Below, piece by piece: positions 23,575 to 28,291 of a stretch of 64,000 nt of DNA. The position numbers and the translations under genes are program-made. The notes beneath the pieces were generated by a model. That model ran no database searches. It was not told the origin of the DNA and saw only the letters and a list, made by a program, of their open reading frames with translations. How positions within the stretch are numbered: position 1 is the stretch's first letter; each line of letters opens with the position of its first letter. The DNA comes from Minisyncoccota bacterium (GTDB lineage Bacteria > Patescibacteriota > Minisyncoccia > Minisyncoccales > Minisyncoccaceae). The stretch spans positions 3,864 to 67,863 of the forward strand of contig JAQUXE010000001.1 of the NCBI GenBank assembly GCA_028692555.1, read 5' to 3'.

Positions 23575-23645
23575 CGGGCTGTAGTATAATGGTATTATTT
23601 GCGCATGGGGTGCGTAAGACCCAGGTTCAACTCCTGGCAGCCCGA
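23575..23645 (+). tRNA. tRNA-Pro (anticodon GGG)
   Basis: Cloverleaf by eye: acceptor CGGGCTG (23575-23581) with CAGCCCG (23638-23644), and discriminator A. The anticodon stem is TGCGC/GCGTA with loop ATGGGGT, U33 and anticodon GGG at 23607-23609. The T arm is CCAGG-TTCAACT-CCTGG. The D arm is short (three firm pairs, GG in the loop). C1-G72 is typical of bacterial proline tRNAs. CCA is not encoded. Length is 71 nt. Confidence 0.95.
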
Positions 23646-23652
23646 CAAATGC

Positions 23653-24636
23653 ATGAAATACAATATTAAAGATAGGGTTTATGGAGAAATAGAAATTTCT
23701 GAACCAATGCTGGTTGAAATTATTAATTCTCCATCTCTACAAAGATTAAAAAAAATATCTCAAGCAGGATACTTTGAACCATACTTCCCAGGAACTTGGC
23801 ATTCACGATTCGAACACTCTCTCGGCGTTTGCATTCTTCTTAAGAAATATGGCGCCTCAATTGAAGAACAAATTGCTGGATTAATCCACGACGTTTCTCA
23901 TTCAGCATTTTCACATTGCATAGATTATGTTTTAAGTGCTGGTTCTGAAAAAGAACATTGTCATCAAGATAATGTTTTTTATGATTATATTAAAAAGACA
24001 GAAATACCAGAGATATTAAGAAAGTATAATTTTGATGTTGAGTATATTCTTGATGAAAGTAATTTTCCACTTGAAGAGAAAAACCTTCCTCAATTATGTG
24101 CTGATAGAATTGATTATTCTTTAAGAACTGCTCTCGTCTTTAATGAAATAGACGGCGCTCGATTTTTTCTTGAAAATCTTTATGTCGAAGATAGTAATTG
24201 GGTATTTAAAAATTTTGAAAGTGCAAAAAAATATGCTGAACTTTTTTTGAAATTAAATGAAAATTATTTCGCAGGAATAAATTCAGCAATAATGTTTTGT
24301 ACTGTTGGAGAATATCTAAAATACGCTCTTAACAAAGGATATATTTCAGAAAAAGATTTATATACTAATGATGATTTAGTACTTTCGAAAATAGATAGCT
24401 TTTTGAGTAAAGATGAACACCTAAGCTTCTTATTTAAAAAGATGAATAATAAGATTAAATGTGATAATCAATTAGATGATTTTGATGATGAAATCTTTTG
24501 CAAATCAAGGATTGTTGATCCTTTGTGTTGTCACAATGGAGAGATAAAGTTAGTTTCTCAAATTGACTCAAATTGGAAAGAAATAGTTGAAGATTGTTCT
24601 AAACCAAAACAATATTTTCTAAAGTTCAAACAATGA
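23653..24636 (+). CDS. HD-superfamily phosphohydrolase (dGTPase/COG1078-like)
   Basis: The start at 23653 (MKYNIKDRVYGEIEI) is chosen because the longer open frame runs back into the tRNA. The 327-residue protein has the HD metal site H55 (SRFEHSLG), H79-D80 (GLIHDVSH), H83/H88, and a later Asp in LCADRIDYSL. The PSLQRLKKISQAGYF opening is that of the COG1078 nucleotide phosphohydrolase family. The likely substrate is a nucleotide, but which one is not visible. It begins 7 nt after tRNA-Pro and ends 4 nt from the converging hydrolase gene. Confidence 0.88.
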   Translation: MKYNIKDRVYGEIEISEPMLVEIINSPSLQRLKKISQAGYFEPYFPGTWHSRFEHSLGVCILLKKYGASIEEQIAGLIHDVSHSAFSHCIDYVLSAGSEKEHCHQDNVFYDYIKKTEIPEILRKYNFDVEYILDESNFPLEEKNLPQLCADRIDYSLRTALVFNEIDGARFFLENLYVEDSNWVFKNFESAKKYAELFLKLNENYFAGINSAIMFCTVGEYLKYALNKGYISEKDLYTNDDLVLSKIDSFLSKDEHLSFLFKKMNNKIKCDNQLDDFDDEIFCKSRIVDPLCCHNGEIKLVSQIDSNWKEIVEDCSKPKQYFLKFKQ

Positions 24637-24640
24637 ACCA

Positions 24641-25597
24641 TCACCTTGCGTAGTAAACATAGTCAAAAATACTTTTTGAAATATCATCAAAAATACCTTG
24701 GATCTTTTTTTCAGAGAGATTGTTATTATTTCTAATAAAAACAGTAAGCAAGTAAGGTCTACCAGGAAGATAAAATACTCCAGAGCTGGCAGAAATCATT
24801 TTTTCATCATGAACTCCAAACTTGTGAGAAACATTAATTTCACTAGGAATAGAGCTGCAAAGAAAATTACATTCTGCTCCGTTTAATATATTTAAAAATA
24901 AATTAGAGTAATAAGGAGAAAGATATGTTGAATTATAAAGAGACCTAAAAAATACACTGTAGCGTTTTGCTGTTATACTAATATCGGAAGCACCCTCTTC
25001 TTCAAAAGTTTTCATCATATGAATAAATTCTTCATTCAATCCCAAATGATCAAAAACTTCTTCTACTTCTTTATTACTAACTTTGTTTATTAAAGTTAAG
25101 TATGCTGTGTTGTCAGAATTAATCAAAGTTTCTCTTAAAAGATTTTCAACTGAAAATCTAGATCCACTGGGCTGCAAATAAAGAGATCCATAATCATCAT
25201 CCTTAAATTCATCTTTAATTATTAAAAGCTGATCCATATCTAATAATCCCTTTTCTATTTTTTTCATAACAACCATAGAGAATGGAATTTTTATTAAGCT
25301 AGCTGGCCATATTTTCTCATCCTTATTTAATGAAAAGTTGGCACCCGTAGGAAGATACTCAAAATACATTGATACAAGAACATCATTATTTTTCTTATAT
25401 TTATTTATTAGCTTATTCTCTAATGGTTTAAAGTTAACTAATAAATCTTTCTTATCGATATAAGAAACATATGGACTTAAGAAATCATAAGAAGCTCTAT
25501 TATTATTAATAATAAAAACAAAAACACACAAAATTGAAGCAATTAGGAATAAAATAAACCAAAACCTATAATCAGTTATTAACTTTTTAATATCCAT
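24641..25597 (-). CDS. membrane-anchored beta-lactamase-like serine hydrolase
   Basis: The 318-residue protein has an N-terminal membrane anchor (about 12-31) and then a class-A-like penicillin-recognition fold. Motifs are SLIK (S100-K103), SDN (S161-N163) and, in place of KTG, HKFG (258-261). The class A deacylating Glu is not evident. It is therefore more likely a cell-wall peptidase or transpeptidase-type hydrolase than a resistance enzyme. The gene follows the structured RNA at 25.6-25.75 kb and may be reached only by readthrough of its terminator. Confidence 0.8.
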   Translation of the reverse strand: MDIKKLITDYRFWFILFLIASILCVFVFIINNNRASYDFLSPYVSYIDKKDLLVNFKPLENKLINKYKKNNDVLVSMYFEYLPTGANFSLNKDEKIWPASLIKIPFSMVVMKKIEKGLLDMDQLLIIKDEFKDDDYGSLYLQPSGSRFSVENLLRETLINSDNTAYLTLINKVSNKEVEEVFDHLGLNEEFIHMMKTFEEEGASDISITAKRYSVFFRSLYNSTYLSPYYSNLFLNILNGAECNFLCSSIPSEINVSHKFGVHDEKMISASSGVFYLPGRPYLLTVFIRNNNNLSEKKIQGIFDDISKSIFDYVYYAR

Positions 25598-25609
25598 TTT
25601 TTATTATGC

Positions 25610-25755
25610 GTAATAGAAACTGCTACAAAGTAGCAGTTCCCAAGGTCCTATCTGTGAATCCGAAGAATTCACGTGGGCACCTCATTTAATTACCACGGCA
25701 ATTAAATATTAAAGTTCCCAATTAGAAAAGTGTTCGGAATTTATTTGATAGGACT
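25610..25755 (-). ncRNA. ssrS: structured small RNA, candidate 6S RNA
   Basis: About 145 nt without an ORF, with its own promoter (25762-25790) and terminator. Closing stem: 25747-25754 with 25645-25652, 8 perfect pairs. The apical arm includes TGGG/CCCA (25717-25720 with 25674-25677) and an 8-bp A/T stem (25700-25707 with 25684-25691). On the 3' side a small hairpin with a UUCG loop (25654-25672) faces an unpaired 5' strand, like the central bubble of 6S RNA. The GAGGTGCCCACG segment also recalls bacterial 6S 3' strands. Terminator: AACTGCTAC-TTT-GTAGCAGTT (25638-25618). A riboswitch for the next gene is the main alternative. Confidence 0.55.
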
Positions 25756-25761
25756 AATTGT

Positions 25762-25790
25762 ATTGTATCATTAAATCTTAAAAACTTCAA
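25762..25790 (-). promoter_or_regulatory. promoter of the structured RNA
   Basis: On the - strand TTGAAG (25790-25785), 17-nt spacer, TACAAT (25767-25762). The predicted start at about 25755 is the first base of the closing stem. The -35 lies in the last codons of the upstream kinase gene. Confidence 0.7.
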
Positions 25791-26823
25791 CGAGTTGTTT
25801 TATCATAGAAACTACTACCGGAGCAGCCTGCAAACTTACACATTGAACGCCTTCGTCGTCTGCAACGATCCATGGCTCTTCTATAATTTTAATTTCTCCA
25901 TCAACCGTTTCAAAAGAATATCCTGGTGTCATTTCATAATCATCAACATAGTCGCGAGCAACATCAGCAGGAATTGCATTTCTTAATAATACCTTAGGAA
26001 CACCGTATAATGAATATGCTTTTCTAAGTATTTCTTCATCCATTAATAATCTATCTTTAATGGGCTCAATTCCCTTTTCGTCTCCTTCTTTCATTACCAT
26101 CTTGCCTCCATCACAATTCGCCTCATCACAAATTAAGTAATAGCCACCTTCATCTTGACCAATCTTTGATGTTGGTAATAATCGCAAACTTCTTGAGGCA
26201 TTACATTTTGGACAAATTCTTCTCCATTTAATTCTTTCGTTAATTATATTCATTGGCACATCTATTAAAACAAAAACGTCTGGATCGTCTCTATAGTCAA
26301 CCAAATCTCTAAAGAATAATGAAAAACTAACCTGATCTAAATTCCTTGGAAAACCATCAAGTAATATTACCTTTCCTTTTCTTTTTGTAATTTCTCTTTT
26401 AACTAAAACTAAAATAATTTCATCGGGCAATAAGCTTTTTGTGTCTCTATCTTCTAAGCTCTTGATAATATCTTCTAGAGCATAAAATCCTCTATAATTC
26501 TTTTCTAAGAATTCTACCAAATCTGCTTTCTTTTGAGGATCTTGCATTTCTTCATCAATTGCTCTTACCATATCTCCAACAGACAAGTGCTCAATTTTTT
26601 CAGCTCCAATAACTTCCGAAAACATTTTAGAATAAGTTCCTTTTCCTGAATTCTTTTTACCAAGCAAATAGGCAATAAAAGTATGTCCACTATTTAAGTG
26701 TTCTTTTAATTTTTCAATTTCAACACCGCACTTCAATTTGAAATATTCTTCTCTTTCTTTTGGGTCCGATAGGTTAAATTTTCTATCATCACCCATTTTT
26801 GTTTTTTCTATTGGAAAATCCAT
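25771..26823 (-). CDS. adenylate-kinase-like nucleoside monophosphate kinase with extra C-terminal region
   Basis: A 350-residue second member of the adenylate kinase fold. The P-loop GKKNSGKGT is at 55-63, the NMP site LLDGFPR ends at 160, and a LID has Cys pairs (CPKCNASRS ... CDEANC). About 50 residues precede the fold and roughly 70 follow it. It is distinct from the standard adk at 6.8-7.5 kb. The substrate may be another NMP, or it may act in a regulatory role. It is joined to the MBL gene by TAATATG. Paralogues like this recur in CPR genomes, but I cannot name a tested function. Confidence 0.8.
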   Translation of the reverse strand: MDFPIEKTKMGDDRKFNLSDPKEREEYFKLKCGVEIEKLKEHLNSGHTFIAYLLGKKNSGKGTYSKMFSEVIGAEKIEHLSVGDMVRAIDEEMQDPQKKADLVEFLEKNYRGFYALEDIIKSLEDRDTKSLLPDEIILVLVKREITKRKGKVILLDGFPRNLDQVSFSLFFRDLVDYRDDPDVFVLIDVPMNIINERIKWRRICPKCNASRSLRLLPTSKIGQDEGGYYLICDEANCDGGKMVMKEGDEKGIEPIKDRLLMDEEILRKAYSLYGVPKVLLRNAIPADVARDYVDDYEMTPGYSFETVDGEIKIIEEPWIVADDEGVQCVSLQAAPVVVSMIKQLVEVFKI

Positions 26824-26824
26824 A

Positions 26825-27670
26825 TTATTTTTTATTAGTTATTATCTTATAATTATTACCGTCTGTTGATATTTTAATATCTCCATCAATATCGTTTCTT
26901 AATACCTTAATACCAAAATTAGACAACCGTGTCAAAACATCATCAGCGGGATGACCATATGAATTCTTACCAACCTGAATAACTGCGATTAATGGATCAA
27001 CTTTAACAACAAACTCCTCGCATGTTGAATGTTTAGACCCATGATGAGAAACTTTTAAAACATCTGCAAAAATATCTTCATTAACTATTTCTTTTTCTAA
27101 TTTATTTGTAATATCTCCTGTAAAAAGAAATGAGCTATTCTTATATATCATTTTAGAGACAACTGAAATATCATTAGCGTTCTTTGAATATTTTTCGATA
27201 ATATACTCATTTGGAGAGATTATATCCATCACTACATCACCTAAGATTATTTTATTAATCTCGTTAGAATAAAATATATTAGCCCCCTCTACTTCAATCA
27301 TTGCTTCCCATTTTTCACTTTTTGAGCTGGTTCCGCTAATCCCTGACCATAATATATTTTCAACAACATAATTGTCTAATAATTCAAAAAATCCTGAAAT
27401 ATGATCGCTATCGGTATGAGTTAGAATAATTAAATCAATCGTTTTATCTCCAAAGGGCATAACTGAAGAAACTTTTTCAAGCAATGTTTTATTACCCGGC
27501 CCACTATCAATTATTATTTGATGTTTTTGTGGTGTTTCTATAAATATTGAGTCCCCTTGCCCAACATCAAAAAAAATCACCTGAAGTTCATTACCAGATG
27601 ACAATTCATAAACAAAAGAAAACGTTACTACATTCAAAAACAATAAAAAGAATATAATCTTTTTACTCAT
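26825..27670 (-). CDS. secreted/anchored ComEC-type metallo-beta-lactamase-fold hydrolase
   Basis: The 281-residue protein has an N-terminal signal or anchor helix (3-20), then FFDVGQGDSIFI at about 33-44, the typical ComEC C-terminal domain opening. The metal motif HTDSDH is at 85-90 and a later KVSHHGSKHS at about 210-220. It contains only the hydrolase domain, without the ComEC channel, so it may degrade extracellular DNA or a nucleotide for uptake. It overlaps the DUF1858 gene by 8 nt. Confidence 0.85.
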   Translation of the reverse strand: MSKKIIFFLLFLNVVTFSFVYELSSGNELQVIFFDVGQGDSIFIETPQKHQIIIDSGPGNKTLLEKVSSVMPFGDKTIDLIILTHTDSDHISGFFELLDNYVVENILWSGISGTSSKSEKWEAMIEVEGANIFYSNEINKIILGDVVMDIISPNEYIIEKYSKNANDISVVSKMIYKNSSFLFTGDITNKLEKEIVNEDIFADVLKVSHHGSKHSTCEEFVVKVDPLIAVIQVGKNSYGHPADDVLTRLSNFGIKVLRNDIDGDIKISTDGNNYKIITNKK

Positions 27671-27857
27671 TTAATTTCTTAATTAGTTTTTTATCATCAA
27701 TTCCATAATTATCACAAACATAGCCAATTTCTAATGTCTCAATTTCTGATTTCATATGTGGACAAAAAAGACACGGGAAACCAAACTCTTCTAAAACATT
27801 CCTTGATTTCTCGTTATCTATTATATCTTTTAATTTTGTTTTTCTGTTTATTTTCAT
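27663..27857 (-). CDS. DUF1858-like small redox (CxxC) protein
   Basis: Started at 27857 (MKINRKTKLKDIIDNEK), where it overlaps the iscU stop as ATGA; an upstream in-frame start at 27866 is possible. The 64-residue product has the DUF1858 pattern: a short helix, then GFPCLFCPHMKSEIETLEIG with a CxxC. This family is often linked to hybrid-cluster proteins or to redox chemistry, and its place behind iscU suggests a role in Fe-S or sulfur handling. Confidence 0.78.
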   Translation of the reverse strand: MKINRKTKLKDIIDNEKSRNVLEEFGFPCLFCPHMKSEIETLEIGYVCDNYGIDDKKLIKKLNE

Positions 27858-28291
27858 GAATGGCAACTTTCTCTTTTAGTAATTTGATTATGTCTTTCCT
27901 CTAAATCTTTTGGAATAACAATTTTGTTTTTAATATAATAATCATACACTGCCTGCGTTAATGCATCAATCGCTAAAACCGAGCAATGAATCTTAATCGG
28001 AGGTAATGCTCCTAGTGCATCAACAACATCTTGTTTTGTTATCTTAAGTGCGTCTTCTATGGTTTTCTTTTTTGCTAAATCAGTCAAAACGCTACTTGTT
28101 GCAATAGCCGCAACACAACCAAAAGTTTCAAACTTGATATCTTTAATTATATTGTCTTTTACTTTAATATAAACAAACATTTCGTCTCCGCATGCCATAT
28201 TGCCGACTCTACCCAAACCATCATAATTATCAATTTTTCCATAATTATGAGGTTTTGAAAAATGTTTTAATACTTCTTTTGAATAATTCAT
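27854..28291 (-). CDS. iscU: IscU/NifU-type Fe-S cluster scaffold
   Basis: The 145-residue scaffold has the three ligand Cys of the family: C34 (NMACGDEM, with D36), C59 (FETFGCVAAIATSS) and C103 (KIHCSVLA). The C-terminal tail after residue 130 adds further residues ending in CHS. It assembles clusters from sulfur supplied by the desulfurase encoded just upstream, to which it is joined by ATGA. Confidence 0.95.
   Translation of the reverse strand: MNYSKEVLKHFSKPHNYGKIDNYDGLGRVGNMACGDEMFVYIKVKDNIIKDIKFETFGCVAAIATSSVLTDLAKKKTIEDALKITKQDVVDALGALPPIKIHCSVLAIDALTQAVYDYYIKNKIVIPKDLEERHNQITKRESCHS

Follow-up and report, generated by a model that had tools for sequence, protein, structure and literature searches.

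The stretch of DNA analysed here (hereafter the window; 64,000 nucleotides) comes from a genome of the Patescibacteria (Paceibacterota) with 480,681 bases in 26 contigs. On its minus strand, a gene for a small structured RNA (25755-25610) is flanked by an adenylate-kinase-like gene and a beta-lactamase-family gene. The features of the locus, in the direction of transcription, are as follows.

25771-26823, minus strand: adenylate-kinase-like gene (Pfam ADK), upstream of the RNA and on the same strand
25762-25790, minus strand: sigma-70-type promoter, with -35 box TTGAAG (25790-25785), 17-nt spacer, extended TG and -10 box TACAAT (25767-25762)
25610-25755, minus strand: probable 6S RNA gene, with its +1 predicted at 25755 and its 3' end placed near 25610; matched at 25755-25644 by covariance model R2 (see below) with 85.9 bits
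25747-25754, minus strand: 5' strand of the closing stem, GUCCUAUC, pairing with 25652-25645; double changes at every pair in relatives
25733-25738, minus strand: 5' strand of helix P2, UCCGAA, pairing with 25664-25659
25732-25745, plus strand: predicted pRNA 14-mer, 5'-GUUCGGAAUUUAUU, a putative copy of the RNA template
25720-25732, minus strand: 5' strand of the central bubble, CACUUUUCUAAUU, placed by relatives aligned to RF00013; template C for the predicted pRNA start at 25732
25675-25719, minus strand: apical arm, with GGG/CCC, a conserved 1x1 mismatch, ACUUU/GAGGU, a bulge and a 9-bp hairpin with a CGUG loop (fold and covariation)
25654-25672, minus strand: alternative 3'-bubble hairpin, GUGAAUUC-UUC-GGAUUCAC, mutually exclusive with P2; two outer pairs compensatory in family members
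25659-25664, minus strand: 3' strand of helix P2, UUCGGA, shared with the alternative hairpin
25645-25652, minus strand: 3' strand of the closing stem, GAUAGGAC (fold and covariation)
25614-25642, minus strand: terminator-like hairpin of 13 bp with a weak U tract to about 25610; clear terminators in relatives
24641-25597, minus strand: beta-lactamase-family gene (Pfam Beta-lactamase2), downstream of the RNA and on the same strand

The adenylate-kinase-like protein (350 aa) is longer than usual and matches the ADK profile only in part; the -35 box of the RNA lies inside the last codons of its gene. Elsewhere in the window, a small DUF1858-like protein of 67 aa (27663-27866; below the Pfam cut-off) adjoins NifS/IscU-like genes, and an HD-domain ORF (23599-24636, TTG start) begins within a tRNA-Pro(GGG) gene on the same strand (23575-23646), its true start probably lying further downstream than the called TTG.

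Transcript ends and predicted fold

The first-pass annotation had described a promoter, TTGAAG-17-TACAAT, firing exactly at an 8-bp closing stem. Both elements are present: the promoter occupies minus-strand positions 25790-25762 and carries an extended TG besides, and the predicted +1 at about 25755 falls one base ahead of the stem, whose 8 bp are formed by GUCCUAUC and GAUAGGAC. As a bare pattern, the promoter is unremarkable (5 found by promoter scan, 3.2 expected). Of 96 homologues (described below), 68 have a TATAAT-like hexamer 3-11 nt ahead of the RNA, where 12 would be expected, and the distances peak sharply at 6 nt. Conservation of the -35 box in the close relatives of the window is partly owed to coding by the last kinase codons, and the -10 box lies past the stop codon.

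At the other end, the 3' end near 25610 was deduced from the terminator hairpin. A final intrinsic terminator had also been proposed, and this holds for the strong 13-bp hairpin and less well for the rest: the U tract is poor (UUUCUAUU), and the hairpin was not reported by the terminator scan of the window. Several relatives have a clear U run at this position, and a stem followed by a U run was found after the RNA in 67 of 96 homologues. The RNA is a stand-alone gene with its own promoter and terminator, the U tract of the window copy being weak.

The predicted fold has a free energy of -51.6 kcal/mol with the terminator hairpin included and is far better than chance (z = -6.3 relative to shuffles; z = -3.6 for a core fragment). 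The long imperfect apical arm of the first reading was recovered at 25675-25719 by both fold and covariation. From closing stem to closing stem, the RNA measures 112 nt in the window (median 124 in relatives), or about 145 nt with the terminator, and so does not reach the canonical 6S length of about 180-200 nt.

The proposed arrangement of an open 5' strand opposite a small UUCG-capped hairpin was borne out in part. The hairpin is predicted as an alternative fold; it shares bases with the UCCGAA/UUCGGA stem, and the two cannot exist simultaneously. Two computed folds of the window RNA lie close together in energy, that with P2 at -34.7 kcal/mol and that with the 8-bp hairpin 25672-25654 at -34.1 kcal/mol. 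The latter becomes the minimum when the 14-nt template is blocked in the computation. In the window's family, the outer pairs of this hairpin co-vary (U-A, G-C, G-U; G-C, U-A, A-U), which represents few events. The hairpin is not consistently predicted across the order (mean z of just -0.65 in 95 homologues). Good support for it is confined to the window's own family, and we make no claim for the order as a whole.

Conservation, covariation and neighbouring genes

Eight relatives of the kinase gene were collected, and the RNA lies directly 3' of the kinase in each. A covariance model (R1) was built from the window and these eight sequences, a seed of nine close relatives with no 6S model as input. 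Aligning 75 homologues to R1 gave alignment A5, from which a second model (R2) was built. One member of A5 (L060) entered only through a match to RF00013, the Rfam model of 6S RNA, and opposite-strand mirror matches of R1, the usual palindrome effect, were left out. R1 matched 100 of the 247 genomes of the order and R2 204 of them, nearly always in a single copy; in a phylum-wide set of 380 genomes, R2 matched 111. Three genomes have two R2 matches each (G070, G108 and G128; both at about 70 bits or more in G128), and the additional matches are possible second 6S copies.

Compensatory changes, which the first-pass annotation had proposed to look for in relatives, are abundant. In A5, 88.7% of cells are paired, double changes occur in 36 of 38 pairs, and the covariation score is 0.714, compared with 0.211 after shuffling and at most 0.122 with slid partners; all of these figures are inflated by the fitting of A5 to the structure. 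A plain offset count from the GGG, CCC, loop and end anchors over 95 sequences agrees with the covariation in A5: the second hairpin pair, for example, is paired in 100% of sequences (GC, CG, GU, AU or UA), as opposed to 55% in shuffles. RNAalifold on plain MAFFT alignments recovered the structure only in part because stem lengths vary. The closing stem, the open central bubble and the apical arm are all backed by covariation.

Sequence conservation is concentrated in a core, GGGA/ACCCAC, which is exact in 77 of 95 homologues, nearly all of the others being one base off. The apical loop (25697-25694 in the window) and its closing pair are also conserved, reading CCGUGG in 43, CCUUGG in 17, CUGUGG in 12 and CUUUGG in 10 of the 95. 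Such strong conservation of the loop goes beyond a simple helix constraint and may reflect a contact with polymerase.

It might be supposed that the locus holds a degenerating 6S copy, which still folds and no longer serves as a pRNA template or is released. A weak terminator, very short arms and a small genome are what such decay might look like. Near-universal retention in the order, the compensatory changes and the conservation of the putative template CCGAAC in the window's family all speak against it, and we regard it as very improbable.

The gene neighbourhood bears on the role of the RNA. Of 95 related loci, 57 have the kinase gene upstream in the same orientation as the RNA, and 38-39 have the MBL gene there. 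The downstream gene varies among relatives, being a convergent tRNA-Pro/L28, a tRNA-Leu or a beta-lactamase-family gene. The conserved neighbour is the upstream one, not the downstream one. The first-pass annotation had set a riboswitch against its own reading, and indeed a cis-acting leader or riboswitch of the beta-lactamase-family gene (24641-25597) would fit the window taken by itself, where that gene begins, in the same orientation, about 15 nt past the terminator-like hairpin with its weak U tract. This gene recurs beside the RNA in just one of 95 related loci; elsewhere, convergent tRNA-Pro/L28 or tRNA-Leu comes after the RNA. Since the downstream gene differs among relatives, the RNA is not a riboswitch of the beta-lactamase-family gene as far as the role of the family is concerned, and conserved association with one downstream gene is refuted; for the window, this reading has next to no chance of being right.

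Relationship to known 6S RNA

RF00013 has 187 positions and a cut-off of 46.4 bits. Searching the window with Rfam gave no 6S match, either at the gathering score or with E relaxed to 10, and returned just the tRNA and chance matches. The comparison that had been suggested with RF00013 therefore failed for the window itself, and it succeeded through relatives, with syntenic orthologues matching below threshold and other Patescibacteria above it. Over 60 relatives, RF00013 produced three weak matches, all at the genomic place of the window's RNA: an orthologue in the window's genus (G003), one directly downstream of the same MBL-fold gene (G009), and one in the gene order MBL-kinase-RNA followed by a convergent tRNA/L28 (G045). 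Over the 247 genomes of the order, there were 10 sub-threshold matches (best 42.7 bits) and none over the cut-off; eight of the 10 lie at the place and on the strand of R1 matches, and a ninth (G194) at an R2 place. One stretch, L062 (G064:C16:6028-6195), scores 18.6 bits with RF00013 and is not matched by R1 or R2, with R2 having a match somewhere in that genome. The short 6S RNA is conserved in most genomes of the order, and the standard database model almost never reports it.

Across the 380 genomes of the phylum, RF00013 gave 30 matches, of which four exceeded the cut-off (60.2, 56.3, 55.4 and 55.4 bits) and 23 coincide with R2 places from the genome scan. A direct search with R2 recovered all four RF00013-confirmed 6S genes with the right strand and ends, at 26.8-46.3 bits; the window RNA scores 85.9 bits with the same model. 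By these matches, the window RNA is homologous to sequences over the RF00013 cut-off. E. coli ssrS was matched by neither R1 nor R2, even after the filters were switched off, and the connection with 6S therefore runs via intermediate Patescibacteria sequences. The RF00013 alignments of relatives display the 6S core CCGAA..GGGAGCC..GGCACCCACCUGGA..CAGG, and the sub-threshold match L070 has the classical elements CCGAA, GGGAGCC, GGCACCCACCUGGA and CAGG.

The RF00013 matches to relatives, their overlap with R1 and R2, the covariation and the conserved core together support the proposal of the first-pass annotation. We conclude, with a probability of about 0.93, that the window RNA is a divergent, shortened 6S RNA which imitates an open promoter. 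A different possibility is a 6S-shaped RNA that binds core RNA polymerase without sigma and thereby stores the enzyme, like Ms1 of Actinobacteria. Ms1 has a structure related to that of 6S and is bound to core polymerase (PMC9130861), and the form of polymerase bound by an RNA cannot be told by computation. Nevertheless, relatives match RF00013, some of them above threshold, the locus has no convincing match to any other Rfam family (at the window and relative loci, there was no Rfam match besides 6S), and members of the window's family share a putative template site resembling the one in B. subtilis 6S-1, which makes an Ms1-like role improbable.

Proposed mechanism, significance and comparison with known systems

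On known 6S RNAs, polymerase synthesises a pRNA that starts in the 5' strand of the bubble and opens helix P2; the freed P2 strand of E. coli 6S then forms an extended hairpin that aids polymerase release, whereas in B. subtilis 6S-1 a small hairpin is already present in the free RNA (PMC8876501). In the window RNA, the template around P2 is UUCCGAAC, and copying from its last C (25732) would give 5'-GUUCGGAAUUUAUU. The predicted start, GUUCGG, equals the first six bases of the sequenced B. subtilis 6S-1 pRNA, 5'-GUUCGGUCAAAACUA (PMC12005410), the match being just six bases long. The putative template CCGAAC occurs in 14 of 95 homologues, which are the window's family, and all 14 give a predicted GUUCGGAA. 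The pRNAs of lactic acid bacteria characteristically carry GG at positions 5/6 (PMC8414754).

On the basis computed here (gene, fold, covariation, 6S homology, synteny, promoter conservation and two alternative folds), we infer a cycle of polymerase binding, inhibition, pRNA synthesis and release. The RNA would be transcribed from its own sigma-70 promoter and, as a rod with an open central bubble, would mimic an open promoter. It would then occupy, and presumably inhibit, the housekeeping RNA polymerase holoenzyme, mainly under limited growth. Once nucleotides are back, polymerase would copy the bubble from the C of CCGAAC (25732), yielding a pRNA that starts with GUUCGGAAUU. This pRNA would melt helix P2, leaving the 3' strand free to form the 8-bp hairpin 25672-25654, and release of the RNA would follow.

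Most bacterial groups are known to have 6S RNA, which regulates RNA polymerase globally. The Patescibacteria (CPR) are one of the largest bacterial radiations; members of the order considered here are ultra-small and mostly uncultured. In the open-licence papers that were searched, we found no report of 6S in Patescibacteria/CPR, the single co-occurrence being an SRP RNA paper, and "unreported" is therefore provisional. The literature describes a wide distribution of 6S and names Actinobacteria as the exception (PMC9130861). That genomes as small as about 0.5 Mb retain this regulator probably means that it is important, the small size of the RNA offers a natural test of which 6S parts are needed, and a lineage-specific covariance model could annotate short 6S RNAs across many genomes. 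More speculatively, and with the odds somewhat against it, the Patescibacteria may possess a phylum-wide, naturally minimised 6S RNA in which a pRNA start like that of B. subtilis is combined with a release hairpin like that of E. coli, and which acts as a main switch between dormancy and growth on a host where most other regulators have been lost.

Compared with known systems, the window RNA shares with 6S/SsrS (RF00013) the rod, the closing stem, P2, the open central bubble, the apical arm GGGA...CCCAC, the conserved 1x1 mismatch, an own promoter and single copy, and differs in its length (about 110-125 nt from stem to stem here, as opposed to a 187-position model) and in the window being unscored by RF00013. 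Ms1 of Actinobacteria has the same 6S-like rod but binds core polymerase. B. subtilis 6S-1 has the GUUCGG pRNA start predicted here (PMC12005410) and likewise a small hairpin opposite the open 5' strand; however, the hairpin of the window RNA uses the 3' strand of P2 and excludes P2, whereas the smaller one of 6S-1 is preformed (PMC8876501). An extended 3'-bubble hairpin made from the freed P2 strand is the release device of E. coli 6S (ssrS) (PMC8876501), and the window RNA resembles it in this respect, although its hairpin has 8 bp rather than 9 and its arms are much shorter.
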